64,000 nucleotides of DNA, from the NCBI RefSeq assembly GCF_000585375.1, contig NZ_KK073874.1, positions 1,426,001 to 1,490,000 of the forward strand. The letters run 5' to 3'. Position numbers and translations under genes: made by a program. The DNA comes from Cryptosporangium arvum DSM 44712 (lineage in GTDB: Bacteria > Actinomycetota > Actinomycetes > Mycobacteriales > Cryptosporangiaceae). The notes beneath the pieces are model-generated. The model was not told the origin of the DNA, did no database searches, and was given only the letters and a program-made list of their open reading frames with translations. Positions 26,504 through 51,894 of the stretch are shown here, piece after piece (position 1 is the stretch's first letter; each line of letters begins with the position of its first letter).

Positions 26504-26700
26504 TGAGCGCGTGTCGCGGTGATCGTGGGTCGGGCTGGGTGCTGTAGTGCGGTCGTGCGCATGGTGCGGTTGTGCGCGGCGGGGAGTCGGTGTCGCGGTG
26601 CGGGTGCTGCATGCGGGCGCGGCGATGTTCGGGCGGCGCGGTGGTGCATCGCTCCCGGCGCGGTGACACCGTGCAACGCGGCGCGCCTGGACAGCGATTT

Positions 26701-27025
26701 TGCGCCGCGTGGTGCATGGCTGTGTTGCGCCGCGTGGTGCATGGCTGTGTTGTGCCGCGTGGTGCATGGCTGTGTTGCGCCGCGTGGTGCACGGCTGTGT
26801 TGTGCCGCGTGGTGCATGGCTGTGTTGTGCCGCGTGGTGCATGGCTGTGTTGCGTCGCGTGGTGCATGGCTGTGTTGCGCCGCGTGGTGCACGGCTGTGT
26901 TGCGCCGCGTGGTGCACGGCTGTGTTGCGCCGCGTGGTGCACGGCTGTGTTGCGCCGCGTGGTGCACGGCTGTGTTGCGCCGCGTGGTGCACGGCCGCGG
27001 CGCGTCGCGTGGCGCACGGCCGCAC
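26701..27025. repeat. 25-bp minisatellite, 12 copies plus one degenerate
   Basis: Units of exactly 25 bp start at 26701 and every 25 bases to 26976; a thirteenth at 27001 is degenerate. Each holds TGCGCCGCGTGGTGCA or a close variant, followed by (C/T)GGCTGTGT. Because 25 is not a multiple of three and the unit lacks stops in all phases, all six reading frames are open across the array. This gives misleading His/Arg-rich or Cys/Trp-rich ORFs in both directions. I regard it as non-coding. Confidence 0.92.
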
Positions 27026-34589: not shown

Positions 34590-37500
34590 ATGCCGCTCTT
34601 CGAGGTCGGGCCCGACGGCCTGGTCCCGCTTCAGCGACTGGACCAAGCGGTCGGAGACTTCGACCGGCAGATCGAGGACGCGTTATGGCGTGACCCTGAT
34701 CCCGTCTACGGCACCCGATTACTTCGCATCCAGCAGCGCCCGACGCTCAGCGCAGGCGGCAACCCCACGCTCATCGCCGTGGACAGCGAGGGCCGCCTCG
34801 TTGTTATACACGCACGGCAGCGCGTCGACCGCAACGAGTTAGCGGAGTGTCTCGAGTATTTCGGTTGGGCCCGCGCGGCCACTCTGGAGGAACTCGCGTC
34901 GCTGTACTGGCGCGGCGAGGACATCTTCTGGAGCGACTGGCAGCGGTTCTCCGAGGACGAAGGCATCAGCAAGCTCGCGGGCAACCCCAAGCTGGTGCTG
35001 GTCGCCGGTGAGCTGGCCGATCGCACCACCGCCACGTTCCAGCTGCTGGTGGAGAATGGTCTTCCGCTGACCGTGTCCACATTGGGCGTCTGGCGCTCCT
35101 CGGTGGGCACGCTTTTGTTGGACATCGGCGACCAAGGACATGGTTTCGGTCGGTCGTCCGGTTTCGGCCGTGTTGATACCGACGTCGAGCAGAGCGACGC
35201 CACGCAGAGCCGGCCTTACTCGTCGGTGCCGTACCCGAGCGGGTTGGGGGCGGAGCCGCGTCCCGGGCCGAAGCCTCCGGTGACCGCGGCTCCCGATGGT
35301 GCTGTTCCTACGCCCTTGGCTGCGCCGGACACCGGGGCGGCCGCGCTCGGTGGGCCCAGTCCGTTGTCCGAGCTCATCTCCGAGCTCAGTTCGCGTGGTA
35401 AGTCCGGGCCGGGTACTCGGGACGGAGCGGGTCGTCCGCAGGGTGCGGGCGGGACTCCGACGGGACGGGAGCCGTTGCCTCCGGTGACGGACGGCCCGGC
35501 GGAACCCCACCCCCCTGCGACGTCGTCCCCCGAGCCGAGCGGGGCTGCCGGTGACGAGCCGGGGCGGTCTGCGGTCGTGCGCGGTGGCCGCGCGGCGCGT
35601 CGGATCGGTGCGGAGCCGGTGAGTCCCGCTCGGGGGCCGGGCCTGACCGTGGTCGGCAGCGGGGCGGGAACGAGTAGCTCCGACGCGCCGACCCAGGACG
35701 GCTCCTCGGGCCGTACCGACGAGCCGGGACCGGGCCGCGGCCCTGGCGACACGCCGGATCGTGCTGACGCCGTCGGCAGCGGTTCGGCTCGTCCGGGGGA
35801 CGACGACCTGGGTCGTGCCGATGGTCCGGCGCGGCCGGTTTCGCCGGTGAGCGGGCTGAGTGTCGTGTCCACGGGCGGCGATCGGCGGCCGGAGCCGGTG
35901 CGGCCGGATGGCCCCGCGCGAGGGGACGAGCCCGTCCGCCCGGGGACCGCCGCGCGCTTCGACGATCCCGCACGTGCGGGCGGCGCTGTTCGTCCGGAGA
36001 CGATCGGTGCGTCGGGCGACCGGCCCGATGCGGGGCGTCACGGCGCCGCGGACACTCCGACGGTGCGACGGCTCGGACCACCGACCTCACACGCGGCCGT
36101 GGACGAACCGACCGACCGGACCGCAGAGATCCGCCCCGTCGACCCGCTGAACGACCCGATCGCAACCCTCACCGGTGGCCTGGACGAGGATCCGTTCTCG
36201 TCGCAGCCGTCGGGAGGTCGCCACGGACAACCATCGACGCCGGATGCGCCGCCCAGCGAGACAGGGGTGCGCCTCACCCAGCCGCGCCGTCCGATGCCGT
36301 CGGGTGACCGCGGTGGACGCCCGGGTCCGGAGAAGCCCCGGCGCGGCCCGTACCCGGTGAGCGGTCCGATTCCGCCGAGCGGCCCGTCGAAGCCGGGTCG
36401 CCCGGAGCCGGACGCGGTTGCCGCACGCTCGAACGGTGACGCCGGACCAGGGCTCGGCGAGCCTCCCGTGGTCGCCGGTCCGCCTCCGACCACGGTGCTC
36501 GGTGCACCCCCGGAGTTCGGCCCGCCGTCCGGCACCCGCGCGCCCGACCCACGTGACGGGGCTCCCCGCGACGCCGGCGCGGTTGCCGGAGGTCCGCGCG
36601 ATCTCGGGCCGCGTGCTGATGGGCTTCGCGATTCCGGTCCGCGTGTCGAAGGGCTCCGCGAGCCTGGCCCGCGTGTCGGCGGCCCTCGCGATGGTGGGCC
36701 AGGTGCTGGCGGTCCGCGTGATGGTGGGCCGGGCGCTGGTGGGCCTCGTGACGGTGATCCGCGTGCTGGCGGTCCTCTCGACGTCGGCCCGACTGCCGGC
36801 GGGCCCCGTGATGGTGCTCCGCGCGGCGGTGGGCTCCGCGATGCTGCCCCGAATATTGGCGGCCCTCGTGCTGGTGGTCCCCGTGATGGTGGGCTTCGTG
36901 ACGGTGGTCCTCGTGATCCAGGGCTGCGTGAGGTGGGCGGCCGGGAGGGTCGCGAGTCGGCTGGGCGTGAGCCCGAGCCGATTGGTCGCGAGTCGGGTTC
37001 CGGTCCGCGCGATCCGGGTCTTCGGGACGCCGGCGATCGCGGGCCCGCCTTCCGCGAACCCGGCCTGCGTGCCGGTGCTCCTGGCGACGGATTCCCGGGC
37101 GAGGGCGGTCCGCGTGAGCGTGGCCCCCTGGAGGGTTTCCCGAGCGATCGTGGCCCTCTCGAGAGCTTTCCGATGGACCGTGGTCCACTCGACGGTTTCC
37201 CGAATGACGGTGGTCCGCGTGAGCGAGGTCCTCTGGAGGGCTTCCCGAGTTCCCGGGGTCCGCTAGAGGGTTTCCCGGCTGCTCGTGGCCCTTTGGAGGG
37301 CTTCCCGCGTGACGGTGGCCCGCGTGATGGTGGCCCGCGTGATGGTGGCCCGCGTGACGGTGGTCCTCGTGACGGTGGCCCGCGTGACGCTGGTCCTCGG
37401 GAAGGGTTCCCGCGTGATGGGGGGCCGCTCGAGCCGGGCCTCCGTGAGATCGGGCGTGACGGTCGTGACCAGGGGCGGCGTGAGGCGATCGGCCGCGAGG

Positions 37501-39761
37501 CAGGTTCGAATTCGCGTGAGCCGGGGCTTCGGGAGGTCGGGCGGGACGATGCCGGGCGTCGAGGGCCCGGGGGTGAGCCTGGCGCTCGGCCGGACCAGTT
37601 CCGAGGCTTCCCGGACGAGTTCTCCGACGGTGGACGTCCCAGTCGAGGGCGTGACCCGCGTGATCCTCGTGACCTGCGTGATCCTCGTGAGCAGGGCGAC
37701 CAGCCGCCGGTGCCGGATCCGCGGTTCAGCCGGGACCGCGATGTGCTGTCGTTCGAGCGGCCGACCGGAGAGTTGCCGGGGCTGGGCGGGCCGGTCAGCG
37801 CTCCGCCGGTGAGCCCGCGGTCCGGTCCGCCGTTGCCGCGACCGCCGTACGACGATGCCGAGGACGACACCAGCGAGATTCCGGTGGCTCGGTCGCCGCG
37901 GTCCGGGCGTCCGGCTGGTCCCGGCCGGGTCAGCGTGACCGGTACGCACCCGGTGCCGTCGTTCCCGCCGGGCGGTGCGCCGTTCGGTGGTCCGGCTGGG
38001 CCCGTTCCGGACGGCCCCGGCCCGAACCAGTTCGGTCGCCCCGATGCTGACGGATCCGCGTTCGGTCGGCCCAATGCGGACGGACCCGCGTTTGATCGAC
38101 CCGCCCCGGACGGACCCGCGTTCGGTCGACCCGGTCCCGGTCCCGGCCCCGACCGTTCGGACGGACCCGCGTTCGGTCGACCTGGCCCCGGCCCCGACCG
38201 TCCGGATGGTCCTGTGTTCGGCCGTCCCGGTCCTGATGGTCCGGATGGTCCGGCGTTTGGTCGCCCCGGGCCCGACGGCCCCGGTCCGAACGGGTTCGGG
38301 CGTCCTGGTCCTGATGGGCCGGACGGGTCGTTCTTCGGTCGGGGGCCGAGCTCGGATGGGTCGGAACCGCCGTTCGGGCGGGGTGGACCCGGCGGCGACG
38401 GTCCGAACGGGTTCGGGCCGGCTGGGCCTGGGCCGCTCGGTGTTGTGCCTTCGGGGCCGGACTCGAGTGGACCGGTGCCACGGCAGGCGGACTTCGGTGG
38501 GCCGAACCGGTCCAGTGGGCCGATTCCTCGTCCCGCTGACTTCGGTGCTCCCACCGGGATGGGAGCCCCGCCGCCGCGGCCGACCGAGATCGGGGTTCCG
38601 CCGGAAGCGGCGGATGCTCAGTTCCGGCGTCCGGATGGCTTCGGGGGTAGCGAGTGGGAGGTGCCGCCGCCCCCGCCCAGCGATTGGGACCGGGGCGATC
38701 GGCGCCGGGGATCCGACGAGCGGCGGCCGGCTGGGCCCACGTCCGGCGGCCCGGCGTTCGGCGGCCCTCAAGCGCGCGGCCCCCAAGCCGGCGGCGCGCA
38801 GTTCGGCGATCTGGGTCCGGACGGGCCCGCGTTTGCTGGTCCGGGTCCGGACGGACCCGCGTTCGGTGGTCCGCGGCCGGACGGACCCGCGTTCGGTGGT
38901 CCGCGGCCGGACGGACCCGCGTTCGGTGGTCAGCGACCGGACGGACCCGCCTTCGGTGGTCCGCGGCCGGACGGTGCGTTCGGCGGACCTGGTCCGGACG
39001 ACGGCGCCTTCGGTGGTCCCGGGCCCGAGAGCCCCTTCGGAGGCCCGCCGGTTTCGGGTGGGCCCGTGTTCGGCGGTCCGCCCACCGGTGGGCCGGATGG
39101 TCGGTTCGGCGGTCCGCAAGGAGGGCCCGTTTTCGGGGGCCCGCCGGGACCGGACGGCTCGTTCGGAGGGCCGCCCGTGGGCGGGCCTGACGGTTCGTTC
39201 GGAGGGCCGCGGCCCGGTCGACCCGTGCCCGGCGGACCGCGGGGCGATGGCGCCTTCGGCGGTCCGAGCCCGGACGGACCGGCCTTCGGTGGCCCGCCCC
39301 CGAGCGGCCCGGTGTTCGGTGGTCCGCCGTCGGACGGTCCCGCCTTTGGCGGCCCGCCGTCGGACGGTCCCGCCTTCGGTGGTCCGCCGTCGGACCGGCC
39401 GGCCTTCGGTGGTCCGCCTCCGGGCGGTCCGCCCCTGGGTGGTCCCCCCGCGGGTGGTCCGCCCGCGAGTGGTCCCGGTCAGTTCGGGCCCCCGTCGGCC
39501 GGTGGATGGCCCGGTACTCCGGAGTGGCCGGCTGGACCCGGCGACGACAATCGCGAATTCCGCGACCGCGCACCCCGCGACCGCGACCCCCGAGGCCAAA
39601 ACCCCCGCGACCCACGGGACCGCGATCCCCGCGACCAAAACCGTCGCGAACGCCGGGACGACGACGATCAACCGACCGCGCTCCGTAGCGGCCCGACCCT
39701 CGTCTGGGACGCCCGCACCCACGGCGAAATGATGCACGAAAACGGCAACAGCGGCCGCTGA
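34590..39761 (+). CDS. Giant Gly/Pro-rich repeat protein with degenerate NucS-like N-terminus
   Basis: 1723 residues. Residues 1-190 resemble the PD-(D/E)XK nuclease domain seen in actinobacterial NucS/DUF91-like proteins (NPTLIAVDSEGRLVVI, then LAECLEYFGWARAATLEELA, DWQRFSEDE, LVENGLPLTV). The usual catalytic positions appear lost: Thr60 for Asp, His74 for Glu and Arg76 for Lys. The remaining 1500 residues are low-complexity and probably disordered: Gly-Pro-Arg-Asp repeats (about 655-960), F-G-R-P-G-P-D-G repeats (about 1150-1285) and F-G-G-P repeats (about 1390-1640), then a basic/acidic end with TLVWDARTHGEMMHENG. TAGGAGGT precedes the ATG. No signal peptide or membrane helix is seen. Function is unknown; a scaffold is possible. 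Confidence 0.8.
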   Translation: MPLFEVGPDGLVPLQRLDQAVGDFDRQIEDALWRDPDPVYGTRLLRIQQRPTLSAGGNPTLIAVDSEGRLVVIHARQRVDRNELAECLEYFGWARAATLEELASLYWRGEDIFWSDWQRFSEDEGISKLAGNPKLVLVAGELADRTTATFQLLVENGLPLTVSTLGVWRSSVGTLLLDIGDQGHGFGRSSGFGRVDTDVEQSDATQSRPYSSVPYPSGLGAEPRPGPKPPVTAAPDGAVPTPLAAPDTGAAALGGPSPLSELISELSSRGKSGPGTRDGAGRPQGAGGTPTGREPLPPVTDGPAEPHPPATSSPEPSGAAGDEPGRSAVVRGGRAARRIGAEPVSPARGPGLTVVGSGAGTSSSDAPTQDGSSGRTDEPGPGRGPGDTPDRADAVGSGSARPGDDDLGRADGPARPVSPVSGLSVVSTGGDRRPEPVRPDGPARGDEPVRPGTAARFDDPARAGGAVRPETIGASGDRPDAGRHGAADTPTVRRLGPPTSHAAVDEPTDRTAEIRPVDPLNDPIATLTGGLDEDPFSSQPSGGRHGQPSTPDAPPSETGVRLTQPRRPMPSGDRGGRPGPEKPRRGPYPVSGPIPPSGPSKPGRPEPDAVAARSNGDAGPGLGEPPVVAGPPPTTVLGAPPEFGPPSGTRAPDPRDGAPRDAGAVAGGPRDLGPRADGLRDSGPRVEGLREPGPRVGGPRDGGPGAGGPRDGGPGAGGPRDGDPRAGGPLDVGPTAGGPRDGAPRGGGLRDAAPNIGGPRAGGPRDGGLRDGGPRDPGLREVGGREGRESAGREPEPIGRESGSGPRDPGLRDAGDRGPAFREPGLRAGAPGDGFPGEGGPRERGPLEGFPSDRGPLESFPMDRGPLDGFPNDGGPRERGPLEGFPSSRGPLEGFPAARGPLEGFPRDGGPRDGGPRDGGPRDGGPRDGGPRDAGPREGFPRDGGPLEPGLREIGRDGRDQGRREAIGREAGSNSREPGLREVGRDDAGRRGPGGEPGARPDQFRGFPDEFSDGGRPSRGRDPRDPRDLRDPREQGDQPPVPDPRFSRDRDVLSFERPTGELPGLGGPVSAPPVSPRSGPPLPRPPYDDAEDDTSEIPVARSPRSGRPAGPGRVSVTGTHPVPSFPPGGAPFGGPAGPVPDGPGPNQFGRPDADGSAFGRPNADGPAFDRPAPDGPAFGRPGPGPGPDRSDGPAFGRPGPGPDRPDGPVFGRPGPDGPDGPAFGRPGPDGPGPNGFGRPGPDGPDGSFFGRGPSSDGSEPPFGRGGPGGDGPNGFGPAGPGPLGVVPSGPDSSGPVPRQADFGGPNRSSGPIPRPADFGAPTGMGAPPPRPTEIGVPPEAADAQFRRPDGFGGSEWEVPPPPPSDWDRGDRRRGSDERRPAGPTSGGPAFGGPQARGPQAGGAQFGDLGPDGPAFAGPGPDGPAFGGPRPDGPAFGGPRPDGPAFGGQRPDGPAFGGPRPDGAFGGPGPDDGAFGGPGPESPFGGPPVSGGPVFGGPPTGGPDGRFGGPQGGPVFGGPPGPDGSFGGPPVGGPDGSFGGPRPGRPVPGGPRGDGAFGGPSPDGPAFGGPPPSGPVFGGPPSDGPAFGGPPSDGPAFGGPPSDRPAFGGPPPGGPPLGGPPAGGPPASGPGQFGPPSAGGWPGTPEWPAGPGDDNREFRDRAPRDRDPRGQNPRDPRDRDPRDQNRRERRDDDDQPTALRSGPTLVWDARTHGEMMHENGNSGR
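36555..37470 (+). repeat. GGPRDGG / GPLEGFP codon-repeat block in the giant gene
   Basis: Tandem and dispersed short repeats encode Gly-Gly-Pro-Arg-Asp-Gly and Gly-Pro-Leu-Glu-Gly-Phe-Pro motifs. At 37310-37395 about six 15-bp copies of a CGTGA(C/T)GGTGGCC(C/T)G unit run in a row. Confidence 0.8.
38040..39480 (+). repeat. FGRP and FGGP repeat blocks in the giant gene
   Basis: From 38040 to about 38440 Phe-Gly-Arg-Pro units recur. From 38755 to 39480 Phe-Gly-Gly-Pro units recur, several with near-identical codons (GGACGGACCCGCGTTCGGTG repeated at 38850-38950). Near-identity at DNA level points to recent expansion. Confidence 0.85.
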
Positions 39762-42484: not shown

Positions 42485-43171
42485 ATGACCACCACGTATA
42501 CCGCCACCCCCACTCGCGAGCAGAACAAGTCCGCCACCCGCACCTGGGCCGCGATCGGCGTCGCCGCCGGCGTCACCGGGGTCGCGAGCATCCAGACCAG
42601 CCTGACCATCGACGCCGGCTACGCCCCCGACACCATCGGTGACCCGGAGAAGGTGGTCGAGCGGCTGGCCGACCAGACGGTCGCGATCCTCGTCACCCAC
42701 ACGCTGACGATCGTCACCGCGCTCCTGCTCGTGGTGTTCGCGGCCGGCCTCAAGCGCCGGCTGGAGGCGCAGGCCCCGGTGGGGAGCCTGCTGCCGTCCG
42801 TCGCCGCGTCCGGCCTCGGGCTCGTGTCGGTGGCCGGGCTGCTGGGCAGCGGCCTGACCACTGAGTTCGTGTTCGGGGCCAACGCGCCCAAGGGTGAGCT
42901 GGTGGCCGAGTCCGGCGACTTCTACGCCCACTGGATCGCGACGATCCCGTGGCTGTGGGTCGGGGCCGGGCTCGCGGGCGTCGCGGTGGCCGCGGCCGCG
43001 CTCAAGCACTCGGCCGCGCCGCGCTGGATCGGCTGGGTGGGCGTCGTGCTCGGCGGCCTGACGCTGGTGGCCGGCATCTCGCCGCTGCAGTACATGGCCG
43101 GCTTCACCGGCCCGGTGTGGCTGCTCGTCACCGCGCTGGGCTTCCTGTTCGCCGACCGGCGTCACGTCTGA
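42485..43171 (+). CDS. Four- to six-helix membrane protein, unknown
   Basis: 228-residue protein with a hydrophilic Thr-rich start and hydrophobic helices near residues 20-38, 68-90, 102-122, 145-165, 175-195 and 205-222. AAIGVAAGVTGVASIQTSL and the final WLLVTALGFLFADRR are characteristic-looking, but I cannot name a family. AAGGAGAACC precedes the ATG. It lies 44 bases upstream of the histidine kinase and could be part of that transcript, perhaps a sensed or regulated partner. Confidence 0.7.
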   Translation: MTTTYTATPTREQNKSATRTWAAIGVAAGVTGVASIQTSLTIDAGYAPDTIGDPEKVVERLADQTVAILVTHTLTIVTALLLVVFAAGLKRRLEAQAPVGSLLPSVAASGLGLVSVAGLLGSGLTTEFVFGANAPKGELVAESGDFYAHWIATIPWLWVGAGLAGVAVAAAALKHSAAPRWIGWVGVVLGGLTLVAGISPLQYMAGFTGPVWLLVTALGFLFADRRHV

Positions 43172-43215
43172 TTCCCGACCGGAAATGTCGTACGCCGACG
43201 GTACGGTCATCGACC

Positions 43216-45189
43216 GTGACCACCGCCACTGTCAGCGCCCTGGCCAGCGAGAACGCCGGCCCGGGCACTGACGGCACGCCCCGGGTGGCGGCCGCGGTCA
43301 CGGCGCTGGCCTGGCTGCTGGCGGTCGGCTCGGCGGTACTGCTGCTCGCGGCCCGGCCACCGGTGAACGAACTGCTCTGGTTCTTCACCGTCGACGCCAC
43401 GGTGGCCGCCGTGTACGGAACGGTCGCCGGGCTGACGCTCTCCCGCCGCCGGCACCCGGTGCCGTGGCTGGTCGCGCTGATGGCCCTGGGCGGTGGCGTC
43501 TCGGCGCTCGCGATGGCCTACGCCGCGCTCGGAGCGCAGCGGTCACTGCCCGGCACCGGCCTGGCCGCGAACCTGATCAGCGTCGGCTGGGTGCCCGGCA
43601 CGATGGCGATCTTCCTGGTCGTGCCCTGGCTCGTGCGTGATCATCCGCTCGACCGCATCGGCCGGGCCGGCGTCAGCCTGGGCGGTGCGGTGAGCGTCGG
43701 CTTCCTCGGCGTGAACCTGACGCAGCCCGAATCCCCGAGCCCCGTCGTCGTCCTGGCCACCGCGTCCGTCGCCGTCGGTCTACTGGCGGCGGCCGACGTC
43801 ACCCGGCGCCGGTTCCGCGGCCCCGCCGGCGAACGCGTCGGCCTCGGCTGGCTCGCCGCCGGCACCGCGCTCATGGCACTCTCGTTCCTACCGTTGGCCC
43901 TGGTCGGAGTCGTCGCGGCCCCGATCTGGTTCACCCCGGTGCTGCACCTCGCCGCCCAAGCGGTGTTTCCGGCGGCGATCCTGGTCGCGGTGCTGCGTCA
44001 GCGGATGTGGGGGCTGGACCTGGCGATCAGCCGGGCCGTGCTGGGCGGGTTGCTCACCGTCGGTCTGGTGATCGTCTACGTCGCGGTCACCGCCGTGCTC
44101 ACCCGGCTGCTCCCCGGCGACGGCATCGCCCAGATCGTGGCCGCCGCGGTCGTCGCGGTCGCGGTGCAACCGTCCCGGCTCTGGCTGCAGGGCCGGGTCC
44201 GGCGACTGGTCTACGGCGACGCGGCCGAGCCCGAACGGGCCGTGCGTCGTCTCGGCCGGCACCTCGGCGGCGCGCAGAGCCCCGAGGAGCTGCTCGACGG
44301 GCTGGTCGAGAGCGTCGGGCACGCGCTGCGCCTGGAGTCGGTGGCGCTCGAGGTCGAGGGCGTGCCCGCGGCGTCCTGGGGCTCGCCGACCGCGTCGCCG
44401 CTGCTGGTGCCGCTGCGTCACCGCGGCTCCGAGGTCGGCGTCCTGCGCCTCACCGCTCCGCCCGGTGAGGCGCTCGATGCTCGCGCGCTGCGCTCGCTCG
44501 ACGAGCTCGCGTCGGTCGTGGCGGCGGGCGTCGTGCTCGCCCGAGCGTCCCAGGATCTGGCCGACGCCAGAGCGCGGCTGACCTCCGTGCGGCTGGAGGA
44601 GCGGCGGGTCATCCGGCGCGAGCTGCACGACGGTCTCGGGCCGTCGCTCGCCGGCATCCGGCTCGGTCTGCAGGGGGCACGAAACCTGATCGGGAGCGAC
44701 CCGAAAGCCGCGGGCACGCTGCTCGCCGCCCTCCAGGACGAGCTCGACGGACGCGTCGAAGACGTGCGCGCGCTCTCCCACAACCTGCTGCCACCGATCC
44801 TCGACGAGCTGGGACTGGAGGCGGCGCTGGCCGAGCTCGCGTCCCGGCACGCGGAGGGCGGCCTCGACGTGCGGGTGCGCTGCGCGGGCACCGAAGCGCT
44901 CGAACCGACGCCGGCCGGCGCCGCGTACGGCATCGTCGCGGAGGCGGTGATGAACGTCGCCCGGCACGCCGACGCGTCCGGCTGCTCGGTCGAGGTCGTG
45001 GCGGCCGCGGACGAGCTCCGGATCGAGGTCGAGGACGACGGCACGGGGGTGCGGCCCGACGCCGTGCCCGGTGTCGGGACCCGCTCCATGCGCGAACGTG
45101 CGGAGGAACAGGGCGGCACGTTCGAGGTCGGGCCAGCCCCGACCGGTGGCACCCGGATCACTGCCGTGCTGCCGCTGGCCGCGCCGTGA
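43216..45189 (+). CDS. NarL-type sensor histidine kinase
   Basis: 657-residue membrane kinase. About ten N-terminal hydrophobic helices (to residue ~330) form the sensor, followed by a GAF-like segment (about 350-445), a HisKA_3 domain with the phospho-acceptor about His471 in VIRRELHDGLGPSLAGIRL, and a HATPase domain (IVAEAVMNVARHADASG, VEDDGTGVRPDAVPG, GTRSMRERAEEQGGTFEVG). GTG 43216 is chosen at the first plausible codon before the first helix; no clear ribosome site is seen, so it may be leaderless. Its stop overlaps the response-regulator GTG (GTGA), a coupled two-component pair. Confidence 0.93.
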   Translation: MTTATVSALASENAGPGTDGTPRVAAAVTALAWLLAVGSAVLLLAARPPVNELLWFFTVDATVAAVYGTVAGLTLSRRRHPVPWLVALMALGGGVSALAMAYAALGAQRSLPGTGLAANLISVGWVPGTMAIFLVVPWLVRDHPLDRIGRAGVSLGGAVSVGFLGVNLTQPESPSPVVVLATASVAVGLLAAADVTRRRFRGPAGERVGLGWLAAGTALMALSFLPLALVGVVAAPIWFTPVLHLAAQAVFPAAILVAVLRQRMWGLDLAISRAVLGGLLTVGLVIVYVAVTAVLTRLLPGDGIAQIVAAAVVAVAVQPSRLWLQGRVRRLVYGDAAEPERAVRRLGRHLGGAQSPEELLDGLVESVGHALRLESVALEVEGVPAASWGSPTASPLLVPLRHRGSEVGVLRLTAPPGEALDARALRSLDELASVVAAGVVLARASQDLADARARLTSVRLEERRVIRRELHDGLGPSLAGIRLGLQGARNLIGSDPKAAGTLLAALQDELDGRVEDVRALSHNLLPPILDELGLEAALAELASRHAEGGLDVRVRCAGTEALEPTPAGAAYGIVAEAVMNVARHADASGCSVEVVAAADELRIEVEDDGTGVRPDAVPGVGTRSMRERAEEQGGTFEVGPAPTGGTRITAVLPLAAP

Positions 45190-46106
45190 CGCGCCCCGGC
45201 GAGGTCATCCGGGTGGCGGTCGTAGACGACCACCCGGTGTTCCGGCTCGGGATGGCAGCCCTGCTGAGCAGCCTCGACGGCATCCAGGTGGTGGCGCAGG
45301 CAGCCTCCCGAGCCGAGGCCCTAGCCGCGATCAGCCCCGGCACCAGCCCCGCCCCCGGCCCTCGCACCAGCTCCGGCCCTGGCGTCAGCTCCGGCCCTGG
45401 CGTCAGCTCCGGCCCTGGCGTCAGCTCCGGCTCCGGCCCCGGCCCTGGCGTCAGCCCCGGCCCTGGCGTCAGCTCCGACCCTGGCGTCAGCCCCGGCCCC
45501 GGCCCCGGCCCCGGCTCCGGCTCGGGCACCAGCCCCGGCCCTGGTGTCGGCTCCGGCCCCACGCCCGACCTCGGCTCCGGCTCGGGTACGGACCCCGGCC
45601 CTGGCGTCGACGTGGTGATCATGGATCTGCATCTGGGTGGCGACTCCGGCGTCGAGACCACCCGGGAACTGATCCGGCGGTGGCCCGACCTGCGTGTCCT
45701 CGTCGTCACGATGCTCGAGGACGACGAGTCGGTCGTCGCGTCGGTCCGCGCCGGTGCTCGTGGCTACCTGCTCAAAGGAGCGACGCCGGCCGAGGTCGAG
45801 CGGGCCGTTCGGGCGGTCGCGAACGGCGAGGTCATTCTCGGTCCGCAGGTCGCCGCGCGGGCGATCAGCTACCTGTCCGGCGCCCGCACCGCCGGGCCGG
45901 TGCCGTTCCCCGAACTCACCGACCGTGAGCGCGAGGTGCTCGACCTGGTGGCCCGGGGGTACGACAACACGACGATCTCGCGGCGGCTGGTCCTGAGTCC
46001 GAAAACCGTGCGGAACCACGTCGCCAACATGCTGACGAAGCTCGGGGTGCCAAGCCGGGCGGAGGCGTTGCTCCTGGCTCGGGAACGTGGTCTCGGAGGC
46101 GTGTGA
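45186..46106 (+). CDS. NarL/FixJ response regulator with Gly/Pro/Ser insertion in the receiver
   Basis: 306-residue regulator, partner of the upstream kinase (GTGA overlap). The receiver begins VIRVAVVDDHPVFRLGMAAL with the acidic pair Asp14-Asp15. The phospho-acceptor is Asp147 in VDVVIMDLHLGG, followed by Thr175 and Lys197. Between helix 2 (ends about Ile49) and strand 3 (starts about Val141) sits a roughly 91-residue Gly/Pro/Ser/Val repeat; without it the protein would be 215 residues, the normal length. The LuxR-type HTH is intact (LTDREREVLDLVARGYDN, then LSPKTVRNHVANMLTKLGV). Binding targets are unknown; an intact active-site set suggests function is kept. Confidence 0.93.
   Translation: MTRPGEVIRVAVVDDHPVFRLGMAALLSSLDGIQVVAQAASRAEALAAISPGTSPAPGPRTSSGPGVSSGPGVSSGPGVSSGSGPGPGVSPGPGVSSDPGVSPGPGPGPGSGSGTSPGPGVGSGPTPDLGSGSGTDPGPGVDVVIMDLHLGGDSGVETTRELIRRWPDLRVLVVTMLEDDESVVASVRAGARGYLLKGATPAEVERAVRAVANGEVILGPQVAARAISYLSGARTAGPVPFPELTDREREVLDLVARGYDNTTISRRLVLSPKTVRNHVANMLTKLGVPSRAEALLLARERGLGGV
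45333..45605 (+). repeat. 18-bp in-frame repeats inside the response regulator
   Basis: Near-perfect copies of AGCTCCGGCCCTGGCGTC (Ser-Ser-Gly-Pro-Gly-Val) run from about 45370 to 45430, with diverged copies to 45605 using CCC or TCC variants. All units are multiples of three and keep the frame. Confidence 0.9.
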
Positions 46107-47093: not shown

Positions 47094-49241
47094 GTGCGTG
47101 ATCGGCGGGTGACTCCGCCCTATCCGTTCTCCGCGGTCGTCGGGCTGGACGACCTGCGCTTGGCGTTGACGCTCAACGCCGTTTCGCCGGCAATCGGCGG
47201 TGTGCTCGCCCGGGGCGAGAAGGGCACCGCGAAGTCGACGGTGGTCCGGGCGCTGCACGCCCTGCTCCCACCGGTCACGGTGGTGGCCGGCTGCCGCTTC
47301 GCCTGCGACCCCGCCTCTCCGGACCCCCAGTGCCCGGATGGCCCCCACGCCGACGTGACCGCCGAGAGCCGGCCCGCCCGGCTGGTGGAGTTGCCGGTGG
47401 GTGCCACCGAGGACCGGCTGGTGGGTGCGCTCGACCTCGAGCGGGCGCTCACCGAAGGCGTGCGGGCCTACCAGCCCGGGCTGCTCGCGGCCGCGCACCG
47501 GGGCGTGCTCTACGTCGACGAGGTCAACCTGCTCGCCGACCACCTGGTCGACACGCTGCTCGACGCGGCCGGCATGGGCCGCGCGTACGTCGAGCGCGAC
47601 GGCGTCTCGGTGCGGCACGCGGCCCGGTTCCTGCTGGTCGGCACGATGAACCCGGAGGAGGGCGAGCTCCGCCCGCAGTTGCTCGACCGGTTCGGGCTCA
47701 CGGTGGAGGTCACCGCCAGCCGCGACCCCGCGGAACGGGCCGAGGTCGTGCGCCGCCGGCTGGCCTACGAGGCCGACCCGGAGGGCTTCGCGGCCCGGTG
47801 GGCCGAGCACGACGCGGAACTGGCGGGCCACATCGTCGAGGCGCGCGCCCGGCTGGCCGACGTCGTGCTGAGCGACGCCGCCCTGCGCCGGATCAGTGCG
47901 GTGTGCGCCGCCTTCGACGTGGACGGGCTCCGGGCCGACCTCGTCACCGCGCGGACGGCCGTCGCGCTGGCCGCCTGGCACGCGCGTGACCACGTCACCG
48001 ACGACGACATCCGGAGCGCCGCCGAGCTGGCCCTGCCGCACCGCCGCCGGCGCAACCCGTTCGACGCTCCCGGCCTCGACCAGGACCAGCTCGACAAGGC
48101 CCTGCAGGAAGCCGCCGACAACGACCCGGACGACGACCCCGACGACGACCCGGGCCGCGGGCCGGACGACCCCGGCGGCCCGGACGACGGCGGCCCGGAC
48201 GACGACGACCCGGACCACGGTGGTCAAGCCGACGGCGACGCGACCGACAGCGACGCGACCGAGGCCGACGCGAACCAGGGCGGCCCCGACCGGCGTCAGC
48301 CCGACGCGGCCCCGAGCGCACCGCACGACGGCCCGCCTCCGTCCGGACCGCAAGCCCCGGCCGACCGGGCCGCCGACGACGACACCGACGATCGGCCGCG
48401 CCGGCTCGCCGCCGCCGAACAAGCCGCGGTCCGCGCCACCAACCCGTACCGCACCAAGCTGCTCACCGTGCCCGGCATCGGGCGCTCCCAGTCCGACGCC
48501 TCCGGCCGCCGCTCGCAGGCCGAGGCCCGCCGCGGCCGCGTGGTGCGCTCCACCCGCACCGACGGCCCGGTGACCGACGTCCACCTGATCGCGACGTTGC
48601 TGGCGGCGGCGCCGCACCAGAAAGCCCGCGGACGCACCGCCGGCCTCCGGCTCGAGAAGCAGGACCTGCGCGCCGCCGTCCGCCGCGGTCGGGAGAGCAA
48701 CACGATCCTGTTCTGCGTCGACGCGTCCGGTTCGATGGCCGCGCGGCAGCGGATGGCCGCGGTCAAGGGCGCGGTGCTGTCGTTACTGCTCGACGCCTAC
48801 CAGCGTCGCGACACCGTCGGCCTGGTGACGTTCCGGCGGGACACCGCGACGCTCGCGCTACCGCCCACCGGCAGCGTCGAAGTGGCCGCGCGCCGCCTCG
48901 AGGAGCTTCCGACCGGCGGCCGGACCCCGCTCGCCCAGGGGCTCGTCAAGTCGGCCGAGGTCCTGAAGATCGAGCGACGACGTAACCCGCACCGACGTCC
49001 GCTGCTCGTCGTGGTCACCGACGGCCGGGCCACCTACGGTCCGGACGCCAGAGCCGCCGCCCGCCGCGCCGCCGCGTACCTGGCCGCCGAGGGCACCGCG
49101 TCCGTCGTCGTCGACTGCGAGAACGGGCCGATCCGCTTGGGGCTCGCGCAGGAACTCGCCGTGCACCTCGGGGCCACCGCGTTCCGGCTCGAGGAACTGA
49201 ACGCCGACAACCTGGCCGGTGTCGCGAGGGGAGCAGCCTGA
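47094..49241 (+). CDS. Cobaltochelatase / Mg-chelatase-like subunit (ChlI-ChlD fusion)
   Basis: 715-residue AAA+/VWA fusion that, with CobN, inserts cobalt into hydrogenobyrinic a,c-diamide. The AAA+ half (about 1-340) has Walker A GEKGTAKST and Walker B GVLYVDEVNLLADHL. A very acidic linker of Asp/Gly/Pro (about 345-440) follows, as in other actinobacterial members but long. The VWA half has the MIDAS motif FCVDASGSM and VVTDGRATYG. It matches the Rv2850c-type gene next to cobO in Mycobacterium. GTG 47094 is used; GTG 47109 is also possible. It stands first behind the B12 riboswitch, and its stop overlaps cobO's ATG. Confidence 0.92.
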   Translation: MRDRRVTPPYPFSAVVGLDDLRLALTLNAVSPAIGGVLARGEKGTAKSTVVRALHALLPPVTVVAGCRFACDPASPDPQCPDGPHADVTAESRPARLVELPVGATEDRLVGALDLERALTEGVRAYQPGLLAAAHRGVLYVDEVNLLADHLVDTLLDAAGMGRAYVERDGVSVRHAARFLLVGTMNPEEGELRPQLLDRFGLTVEVTASRDPAERAEVVRRRLAYEADPEGFAARWAEHDAELAGHIVEARARLADVVLSDAALRRISAVCAAFDVDGLRADLVTARTAVALAAWHARDHVTDDDIRSAAELALPHRRRRNPFDAPGLDQDQLDKALQEAADNDPDDDPDDDPGRGPDDPGGPDDGGPDDDDPDHGGQADGDATDSDATEADANQGGPDRRQPDAAPSAPHDGPPPSGPQAPADRAADDDTDDRPRRLAAAEQAAVRATNPYRTKLLTVPGIGRSQSDASGRRSQAEARRGRVVRSTRTDGPVTDVHLIATLLAAAPHQKARGRTAGLRLEKQDLRAAVRRGRESNTILFCVDASGSMAARQRMAAVKGAVLSLLLDAYQRRDTVGLVTFRRDTATLALPPTGSVEVAARRLEELPTGGRTPLAQGLVKSAEVLKIERRRNPHRRPLLVVVTDGRATYGPDARAAARRAAAYLAAEGTASVVVDCENGPIRLGLAQELAVHLGATAFRLEELNADNLAGVARGAA

Positions 49242-49855
49242 TGCCGCAGGGCAAACCGACCACCGTCCCGAACGACGGCCTCACCACCCGCCAGCGCCGC
49301 CGCCGCCCGATCCTGGCCGTCCACACCGGCCCCGGGAAGGGCAAGTCCACGGCGGCGTTCGGGCTCGCGCTGCGGGCCTGGAACGCCGGCTGGCCGATCG
49401 GCGTCTTCCAGTTCGTGAAGAGTGCGAAGTGGCGGGTGGGGGAGGAGGACGCGCTCACCGCGCTCGGCGAGTACCACGCGCAGACCGGCACCGGCGCGCC
49501 CGTGACCTGGCACAAGATGGGCGAAGGCTGGTCCTGGATCCAGCGCGCGGGCACCGAGCAGGACCACGCGCGCGACGCGGCCGAAGGCTGGGAGCAGATC
49601 AAGCGTGATCTGGCTGCCGAAAATTACGGCCTGTATGTCCTGGATGAGTTCACTTATCCCATGAAGTGGGGTTGGGTCGACGTCGATGATGTGGTGGAGA
49701 CGCTGGGGAACCGCCCCGGCAGCCAACATGTCGTGATCACCGGCCGTGATGCCCATCCGTCCCTTCTCGAAGCTGCTGACCTGGTCACCGAGATGACGAA
49801 GGTCAAGCACCCGATGGACGCCGGGCAGAAGGGCCAGAAGGGAATCGAGTGGTGA
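49241..49855 (+). CDS. cobO: Corrinoid adenosyltransferase
   Basis: 204-residue enzyme adding the 5'-deoxyadenosyl ligand to cob(I)yrinic acid a,c-diamide. AVHTGPGKGKSTAAFGLALR is the P-loop; VFQFVKSAKWRVGEEDAL and VLDEFTYPMKWGWVDVDDVV are CobO/CobA_Ec signatures. Its ATG overlaps the chelatase stop by one base and its own stop overlaps cobB (GTGA). Length and context match Rv2849c-type CobO exactly. Confidence 0.97.
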   Translation: MPQGKPTTVPNDGLTTRQRRRRPILAVHTGPGKGKSTAAFGLALRAWNAGWPIGVFQFVKSAKWRVGEEDALTALGEYHAQTGTGAPVTWHKMGEGWSWIQRAGTEQDHARDAAEGWEQIKRDLAAENYGLYVLDEFTYPMKWGWVDVDDVVETLGNRPGSQHVVITGRDAHPSLLEAADLVTEMTKVKHPMDAGQKGQKGIEW

Positions 49856-51894
49856 CCGTCGTCCCCCGCCTCGTCATCGCCGCCCCGGCGTCCGGCCACG
49901 GCAAGACCACCGTCGCGACCGGGCTCCTCGCCGCGTACAAAGCGCGTGGCCTGCGGGTCAGTCCGCACAAGGTCGGCCCGGACTACATCGACCCCGGCTA
50001 CCACGCCCTGGCCTCCGGGCGGCCGGGTCGCAACCTGGACCCGTATCTCGTCGGCCCGCACCTGATGGGCCCGCTGTTCGCGCACGGTGCCGCCGGTGCC
50101 GACCTCGCGGTCGTCGAGGGCGTCATGGGCCTCTACGACGGCGCGGTCGGGCACGGTGACCTCGGCTCGACCGCGCAGGTCGCGGCCGCGCTCCGGGCGC
50201 CGGTCGTGCTCGTCGTGGACTCGTCGGCGCAGGGCCGGTCGGTCGCCGCGCTGGTGCACGGGTTCCGCACGTACGAGCCGAGCGTCTGGCTCGGCGGGGT
50301 GATCCTCAACCGGGTCGGCTCCGAGCGGCACGAGAAGATCCTGCGTGACGCGTGCGAGGAGATCGGCACGCCGGTGTTCGGGGCGTTGCGTCGGCGCGAC
50401 GCGATCTCGACGCCGTCGCGGCACCTGGGCCTGGTGCCGGTCGCGGAGCGCAGCCAGGAAGCGACCGAGGCCGTCGACGCGATGGGGCGGATCGTCGCCG
50501 AGAGCGTGGACCTGGACCGGCTGCTGTGGCTCGCGCGGTCGGCTCCGCCGGTGTCGGCCGACCCGTGGTCGCCGTCCGAAGCGGTCGGCGGCCGGGTGTC
50601 GGAGCGTCCGGTGATCGCGGTCGCCGCCGGAGCGGCGTTCACTTTCGGTTACGCCGAGACGGTCGAGCTGCTGGAAGCCACCGGGGCGGTCGTGGCGCGG
50701 TTCGACCCGCTGCACGACGAGTCGTTGCCGGAGGGTGCGGCCGGGCTGGTCGTCGGGGGTGGGTTCCCCGAGGTGCACGCCGAGGCGCTGAGCGCGAACG
50801 AGCCGTTGAAGAAGGCGGTGCGTGAGCTGGCGGCGTCCGGGGCGCCGATCGCCGCGGAGTGCGCCGGGCTGCTCTGGCTGACCAAGTCGCTGGACGGCAA
50901 GCCGATGTGCGGTGTGCTCGACGCCGAGGCGGGGATGACGCCCAACCTCACGCTCGGTTATCGGAGTGCGGTGGCGATCTCGGATTCGCAGCTGCTGCCG
51001 GAAGGGACGCGGGTGCACGGGCACGTGTTCCACCGCACGCAGGTGGAGCCGCGGGCCGGGGCGCGGCCGGCCTGGCAGTGGCAGGGGCGCCCGCCGGAGG
51101 GGTTCGTGCAGGACGGGATTCACGCGTCCTACCTGCACCTGCACTGGGCCGCGCATCCGGTGATCGCGCGCCGGCTGGTCGATGCGGCGGCGCGCCTGCA
51201 GCGTCGTGCGTTGCCCGCCGTCGCTGCCGGTCCGTCGAACACCCTGGTCGACGCTCCGCGCGCGCTACCGCCCGCGTCCGCCGACCCCGCCCCCACGAAG
51301 ATCGACACCCCCGCCGACCCGGCCTCGGCCGCCCCGACGGCCGTGGCCCCCGCCCCGACCGCGGTCGAGCCGGCCGTACCGACCCCGACCGCTATCGAGC
51401 CGCCGGCGGCGACCCCGACCGCGGTCGAGCCGACCCCGACCCCGACCGCTATCGAGCCGGCCGGCGACGAGACGCCCACGGCGGTGGTGCCGGCGGGTGG
51501 ATCCGGTGAGGACCGGGAAGCGGCGGACGCGGCTGCGGCCCGGGCCCGGGCGGAGGCCGACGCCGCCGCCGCCCGCACGCGTGCCGAGCAGGACGCCGTG
51601 GCAGCCGGCACGCGCGACGCCGTGAAGAGCGGCACGCGGGACGCCGTGAAGAACGGCGCCGGGTCCGACGATGCGGCGCACGAGGCCGCCGGGATCGGGC
51701 CCGACCGGAGGGCCGATGGCGACGAGGGCACCGACGAGGCGGTGGCACCAGGTGTGGCGTCGATGAAGGAGAACGGCACCACCGCTGACGGGAATGACAT
51801 CGCGACGGCCGACAAAAACGGCGATTCGGGAAGTTTGCCCCGCGTGTCGCGGAGCGACGGTCCGGCGTCTGCGCCGGATCGCGACGGATCATGA
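49852..51894 (+). CDS. cobB: Cobyrinate a,c-diamide synthase with long low-complexity tail
   Basis: 680 residues against a usual ~450. The enzyme part (1-455) amidates the a and c side chains: LVIAAPASGHGKTTVATGLL (ATP site), SPHKVGPDYIDPGYHALASG, and the GATase Cys in IAAECAGLLWLTKSLDGKPM with a final GIHASYLHLHWAAHP. From about residue 460 a 220-residue tail of Pro/Thr/Ala repeats (PTAVEP, PTAIEP) and Ala/Arg/Glu-rich coiled segments follows. The tail is probably disordered and looks like repeat expansion. GTG 49852 overlaps cobO. The next gene, cobI, starts 67 bases later. Confidence 0.95.
   Translation: MTVVPRLVIAAPASGHGKTTVATGLLAAYKARGLRVSPHKVGPDYIDPGYHALASGRPGRNLDPYLVGPHLMGPLFAHGAAGADLAVVEGVMGLYDGAVGHGDLGSTAQVAAALRAPVVLVVDSSAQGRSVAALVHGFRTYEPSVWLGGVILNRVGSERHEKILRDACEEIGTPVFGALRRRDAISTPSRHLGLVPVAERSQEATEAVDAMGRIVAESVDLDRLLWLARSAPPVSADPWSPSEAVGGRVSERPVIAVAAGAAFTFGYAETVELLEATGAVVARFDPLHDESLPEGAAGLVVGGGFPEVHAEALSANEPLKKAVRELAASGAPIAAECAGLLWLTKSLDGKPMCGVLDAEAGMTPNLTLGYRSAVAISDSQLLPEGTRVHGHVFHRTQVEPRAGARPAWQWQGRPPEGFVQDGIHASYLHLHWAAHPVIARRLVDAAARLQRRALPAVAAGPSNTLVDAPRALPPASADPAPTKIDTPADPASAAPTAVAPAPTAVEPAVPTPTAIEPPAATPTAVEPTPTPTAIEPAGDETPTAVVPAGGSGEDREAADAAAARARAEADAAAARTRAEQDAVAAGTRDAVKSGTRDAVKNGAGSDDAAHEAAGIGPDRRADGDEGTDEAVAPGVASMKENGTTADGNDIATADKNGDSGSLPRVSRSDGPASAPDRDGS

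Follow-up and report, generated by a model that had tools for sequence, protein, structure and literature searches.

A Gly/Pro/Ser tandem repeat inside the receiver domain of a Cryptosporangium arvum NarL-type response regulator, probably a slippage-expanded loop

The response regulators LiaR, VraR and DesR, of the NarL/FixJ type, consist of a receiver domain and a GerE helix-turn-helix (HTH) output domain, keep the receiver catalytic residues, and are encoded in an operon with a HisKA_3 histidine kinase. Coding tandem-repeat expansion by slippage occurs in GC-rich bacterial genes and usually affects linkers or tails. Here, a stretch of 64,000 nucleotides (the window; contig NZ_KK073874.1, positions 1,426,001 to 1,490,000) of C. 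arvum DSM 44712 was analysed, in which a NarL/LuxR-type response regulator gene, RR-A, lies at 45186–46106 on the + strand. RR-A is like LiaR/VraR and DesR in its domains, catalytic residues and operon, but unlike them it has a 92-residue loop between helix 2 and strand 3 of the receiver. Its closest named relatives were actinobacterial NarL-type regulators (76%, Nocardioides) with a HisKA_3 partner, in a search that excluded fungal sequences. We consider it likely that RR-A is a working NarL-family regulator whose native loop was expanded by slippage and is disordered and nearly neutral.

Long receiver loops have been described in fungi. According to PMC8510515, bacterial receivers show small differences in loop length, whereas in 31% of fungal hybrid-kinase receivers the α2-β3 and/or α3-β4 loop carries an insert of at least 10 residues, counted against E. 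coli CheY. The fungal Ssk1 receivers all have Pro/Ser-rich α3-β4 inserts with a mean length of 38 ± 16 residues. Such inserts, which are predicted to be disordered, are reportedly commoner in fungi than in bacteria. The authors of that paper hypothesised target binding and noted that another explanation is needed if this does not hold. Two regulators of this genome exceed the 10-residue threshold of PMC8510515: RR-A, with 88 additional residues in α2-β3, and a second NarL-type regulator, RR-B, with 72 residues in α3-β4 versus 6–17 in its orthologues. RR-A shares with Ssk1 and the hybrid kinases the placement of a predicted-disordered insert in one of the same two loops, and with Ssk1 the Pro/Ser richness. 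It differs from the fungal receivers in being bacterial and NarL-type, in its Gly-rich tandem repeat and in the absence of the insert from congeneric orthologues. The Ssk1 inserts occur in all Ssk1 receivers and were hence proposed to be functional (PMC8510515), whereas the RR-A insert occurs in neither of two orthologues. By analogy, RR-A shows, in a bacterial variant, the kind of loop architecture described for fungal receivers; the likeness appears to be one of architecture only, and no homology beyond the shared receiver fold is claimed.

The RR-A open reading frame (ORF) starts with GTG and encodes 306 amino acids. The first part of its receiver (residues 8–49, 45207–45332, + strand), delimited by homologue alignments and an AlphaFold2 (AF2) model, runs from strand 1 to helix 2 and holds the acidic pair D14/D15. 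The second part (residues 142–212, 45609–45821, + strand), delimited by Pfam, AF2 and superposition, runs from strand 3 to helix 5 and holds the phospho-acceptor D147 (codon 45624–45626), T175 and K197. These five residues are all present, and they are invariant or nearly so in an alignment of 49 homologues. The LuxR-type HTH domain GerE (PF00196, E = 1.5e-18) covers residues 244–298 (45915–46079, + strand). The Pfam Response_reg match (E = 4.7e-18) covers residues 141–208 only (profile 43–110), since the insert cuts the first part of the receiver off from what follows. An earlier note on this DNA had described the gene, and its coordinates, strand, length, five catalytic residues and intact frame across the repeat were all as it gave them.

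The expanded loop comprises residues 50–141 (45333–45608, + strand), as delimited by Tandem Repeats Finder (TRF), orthologue alignment and AF2. The low-complexity stretch, residues 51–141, contains 30 Gly, 22 Pro, 20 Ser and 8 Val among its 91 residues. The earlier note's 91-residue Gly/Pro/Ser insert is therefore real: its removal leaves 215 residues, and the insert-free orthologues have 213–214. The loop is 92 residues long here versus 4 in the orthologues, a net insertion of 88. The dominant repeat unit is GPGV(S/P)S, encoded by 18 bp, and TRF found a period of 18 with 8.6 copies at 45355–45503. The longest exact self-match measured 46 bp, with copies 18 bp apart at 45368 and 45386, spanning a 64-bp perfect repeat at 45368–45431 (+ strand), which looks like the youngest part of the array. 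The best self-match identity of the insert was 0.72; none of 500 codon shuffles reached this value (maximum 0.62). All 14 of the best listed self-match shifts were multiples of three. The 18-bp in-frame repeat that the earlier note described is thus real, and it looks like the product of tandem duplication. The terminal unit, GPGV followed by DVVIM, aligns with the native orthologue loop, GPDV followed by DVVIM, and the array therefore probably grew out of the native loop by in-frame slippage. Like GC-rich slippage expansions elsewhere, the array has in-frame 18-bp units, a low-complexity product and a length that differs between close relatives; unlike the usual ones, it lies inside a compact catalytic domain.

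Two other origins of the insert were rejected. A mobile or dispersed element was discarded, as the insert DNA had only nine weak matches in the genome (67–87% over 54–204 bases). An extra folded domain was ruled out by the composition and the AF2 model, both of which point to disorder.

Orthologues of RR-A were compared in the congeneric genomes G001 and G002. They are syntenic, 89% identical to RR-A outside the insert, and have the loop IGPD[AV]DVVIMD. The insert was absent from both (2/2). The orthologue alignment suggested earlier thus gave insert-free proteins with the kinase neighbour kept. A third congener, G003, had no clear orthologue (best match 56%). The receiver dN/dS (non-synonymous to synonymous divergence, NG86 method) was 0.073/0.676 (~0.11) against G001 and 0.063/0.631 (~0.10) against G002, and that of the insert-free pair G001–G002 was 0.069/0.471 (~0.15). 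By these sequence comparisons, the receiver appears to show no sign of relaxed selection.

The AF2 model was built with the 49 homologues, which come from named genomes. It gave strands at 8–13, 33–39, 143–146, 170–175 and 193–196 and helices at 17–28, 42–48, 155–165, 180–188 and 201–212. The insert falls between helix 2 (42–48) and strand 3 (143–146), where it had been placed from the letters alone. The mean pLDDT (the AF2 confidence score) of ten-residue blocks was 95–98 in the receiver (11–50 and 141–220), mostly 92–98 in the HTH domain and 67 in the linker block 231–240. The blocks of the insert had a pLDDT of 44–58 and almost no secondary structure. The best structural matches of the model included LiaR (5hev), VraR (4gvp) and DesR (4le0). 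In VIA-align, the parts of the model receiver on both sides of the insert superposed together on DesR 4le0_B with Z = 22.0 over 133/133 residues (root-mean-square deviation, rmsd, 1.6) and on 3cz5_C with Z = 23.5 over 142/142 residues (rmsd 1.3). The receiver is thus predicted to fold normally as (β-α)5 with a disordered insert. The structure model proposed in the earlier note as a check accordingly returned a surface loop on a receiver predicted to fold. In receivers, the loops that lead from a helix to the next strand and the active site are on opposite faces. The legend of Fig. 2 in PMC8510515 places these loops likewise.

The loop was compared outside the genus. The distance from the acidic pair to the phospho-Asp, taken over all 80 homologous loci, of which the 49 aligned sequences are a subset, was 44–45 residues in 72 loci, 50–54 in five and 35 in one, with two unscored; it is 132 in RR-A. 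The spacing of 50–54 residues was found in Cellulosimicrobium (two), Puerhibacterium, a Brevibacterium metagenome-assembled genome (MAG) and a Frankia MAG. The helix 2–strand 3 loop had 4–5 residues in 44 of the 49 aligned homologues. The loop therefore varies modestly elsewhere and is extreme in RR-A. For the order, the 150 best-ranked matches from 101 genomes were listed; 148 of them were continuous and at most 8 residues longer than the query. The remaining two were RR-A itself and a 141-codon frame that matches the second receiver part only. RR-A was the only long-insert receiver among these 150 listed matches, a lower bound for inserts, as RR-B was absent from them. The open-access papers listed in literature searches included none on long inserts in receivers of bacteria. 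In the bacterial sample covered here, a long receiver insert is an unusual feature. The earlier claim that receivers rarely tolerate long insertions fits this sample (one among the 150 listed) but cannot be extended to all receivers, as such loops are present in many fungal ones (PMC8510515).

Loop expansions recur in the genus, which the earlier account, otherwise partly supported, had missed. RR-B (G000:C1:4800356-4801222, − strand; L043:1357-2223; G000 denotes the C. arvum genome) has a 72-residue helix 3–strand 4 loop. Its insert is Gly/Pro/Ser/Ala-rich with an 18-bp period of its own, and the loop has 6, 17 and 6 residues in the orthologues of G001, G002 and G003. The RR-B receiver dN/dS was 0.05, 0.08 and 0.09 in the pairs with G000 versus 0.05, 0.05 and 0.13 in the pairs without it. 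RR-C of G003 (G003:C6:189675-190394; L148:576-1295) has an Ala/Ser-rich helix 3–strand 4 loop that makes it exceed its G000 orthologue by about 19 residues (matched codons 240 versus 221). RR-D (G001:C13:178973-179659 and G002:C51:14038-14730) has about 16 extra Pro/Ala-rich residues in the strand 3–helix 3 loop, adjoining the phospho-Asp on the active-site face; this expansion is absent in G000 and G003. These cases come from receiver profile searches with 149, 146, 139 and 126 matches in the four genomes, with at most 150 candidates scored in each; the counts are lower bounds in three of the four genomes. Odd or partial receiver matches were inspected in 8 of 10 regions of one set and 17 of 18 of another. 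No insert was counted at loci with unread letters (L144, L146, L156), frameshift-like breaks (L045, L047, L147) or missing pieces (L046, L048, L150, L151, L155). The other inspected partial-receiver loci showed no long loop insert beyond RR-A to RR-D, and L152 had a modest one of about 8 residues. In L046 (G000:C1:5397920-5398522) and L048 (G000:C1:4858929-4859261), the receiver frame starts near strand 3 and the first half is apparently missing; the L046 frame seems joined to kinase-like sequence.

The mutational background was surveyed with TRF (score at least 100) in 20 evenly spaced 20-kb samples (400 kb) of the C. arvum genome. This gave 30 arrays (75/Mb, 1.17% of bases), and in 26 of these the period was divisible by three. 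GC-rich actinobacterial controls (412 kb) gave 12 arrays (29/Mb, 0.33% of bases), with such a period in 8. The samples of G001 held 12 arrays in 160 kb, like C. arvum, and those of G003 an intermediate 5 in 120 kb. Relative to the controls, array density in the genome-wide samples was 2.6-fold in both G000 and G001 and about 1.4-fold in G003, and G002 showed no increase. A strong genus-wide enrichment was rejected, as the first figure of 9- to 19-fold was biased by the use of regions around RR-A. A Pfam scan of 10 array-bearing C. arvum ORFs gave a domain match in seven, and in one the array lay within the domain span. This protein (L172:12930-14576; G000:C1:5162930-5164576) carries a VPVRS repeat with a 15-bp period and 6.9 copies inside a PPDK_N domain, whose profile matches at 3–51 before the array (weakly, 19.8 bits, below the cut-off) and at 117–214 after it. 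Repeats thus seem to interrupt domains other than receivers as well, and this speaks for a mutational cause.

In the explanation that we favour, a native four-residue GPDV-like loop would have expanded to about 92 residues through in-frame slippage of GC-rich 18-bp units or their unequal exchange. The loop would emerge on the face of the receiver that lies opposite the phosphorylation site, clear of the α4-β5-α5 output surface. We propose that the domain for this reason still folds, is phosphorylated by the neighbouring HisKA_3 kinase and controls the HTH domain. The insert would be nearly neutral and mainly alter the hydrodynamic size. Of the two outcomes offered in the earlier note, tuning of phosphorylation, dimerisation or partner choice on the one hand and neutral expansion on the other, the evidence leans to a tolerated expansion.

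Several points weigh against this explanation. Neutrality is deduced from the restriction of the insert to one genome, of one strain of the species, and from weak tests. The comparison of the insert with itself at an 18-bp shift, in which 42 of the 46 codons that differed were non-synonymous, favours neutrality in that it gave no hint of constraint on single residues, but it mixes register effects with substitutions. The pairwise dN/dS values span the time before the insertion and do not isolate purifying selection after it. The low pLDDT of the insert is partly expected, as AF2 had no homologous residues there. The array controls were 34 GC-rich loci (of 69 long enough) from the neighbourhoods of regulator homologues and not a random sample. 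Array enrichment was uneven within the genus: the G002 samples, with 17/Mb (2 arrays in 120 kb), fell short of the controls, although G002 also has receiver loop expansions. Lastly, the inserts recur in the same two loops as the fungal disordered inserts proposed to bind targets (PMC8510515).

The alternative that fares best, although we regard it as unlikely, is that the insert is a functional loop. It would be a disordered tether or binding platform whose length varies rapidly and which influences the partners, the dimer spacing or the stability of the regulator, as has been suggested for the helix 3–strand 4 loop of Ssk1, also rich in Pro and Ser. The shared loops and the Pro/Ser-rich composition (PMC8510515) speak for it, and so do expansions in four regulators of one genus. 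Against it, the insert is absent from both RR-A orthologues and that of RR-B from three (with a shorter, 17-residue loop in G002), nothing but low complexity was seen in the insert, and the array in the unrelated PPDK_N domain points to a general mutational process. A broader version has a slim chance in our judgement. Here, receiver loops across the genus would be growth points, at which slippage repeatedly builds fungal-like disordered loops that evolve fast and whose length can be tuned to adjust partner choice or activity.

Compact domains are usually harmed by internal insertions, which counts for a decaying gene. The insert would then break the receiver, phosphorylation would be lost, and the HTH domain would be constitutive or inactive. 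The detection of only the second receiver part by Pfam fits this possibility, which we hold to be improbable: the catalytic residues, the kinase overlap and the gene order are kept, the predicted fold is normal, and the dN/dS is low with no excess over the insert-free pair. An assembly or sequencing artefact in the GC-rich repeat is very improbable; tandem arrays are error-prone and the insert was seen in one genome only, but this genome was assembled as one 9.2-Mb contig, the array is in frame at all 14 best shifts, many positions vary among its units, another in-frame array lies in the RR-B receiver, and 26 of the 30 sampled arrays have a multiple-of-three period.

The partner histidine kinase is encoded upstream at 42949–45189 (+ strand), with Pfam HisKA_3 at residues 551–616 and HATPase_c at 661–744; its true start may lie downstream of 42949. 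The GTG start of RR-A overlaps the kinase stop by 4 bp (GTGA, 45186–45189), and this overlap is common to G001 and G002. The kinase is kept upstream of the regulator in both, with 517/735 (G001) and 538/740 (G002) identical residues. A phosphoribosyltransferase-like gene (PF00156, 46148–46816, + strand) is the conserved downstream neighbour, with 185/220 (G001) and 182/220 (G002) identical residues. Further downstream, a Mg-chelatase-like AAA/VWA gene starts the region 47094–51894 of the window, followed by genes that we take to resemble cobalamin biosynthesis genes (CobO- and CobB-like). Elsewhere in the window, a 25-bp tandem repeat (12.8 copies, 94% matches) lies at 26700–27020; its period is not a multiple of three, and all six frames are open across it. 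Dense 15/30-bp arrays occupy 36597–39475, of which those at 37304–37428 and 38817–38974 lie within a 1725-codon open frame on the + strand with Gly/Pro/Asp-rich repeats (e.g., PDGPAFGGPR).

RR-A is an annotation trap, as Pfam detects only the second part of its receiver. It offers a natural experiment on how far a receiver domain can be interrupted. The close insert-free orthologues make a comparison with and without the insert easy, and a functional loop would be easy to test. If receiver loops are growth points in this genus, RR-A would be the longest of the cases in four regulators (RR-B in two genomes, RR-C in one and RR-D in two). RR-A may be a bacterial counterpart of the disordered fungal α2-β3 and α3-β4 inserts, whose role PMC8510515 leaves open. 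As the RR-A and RR-B inserts are lineage-restricted and repeat-derived, slippage plus tolerance would provide a concrete null model for the fungal loops, in which these two loops may collect tolerated slippage products.

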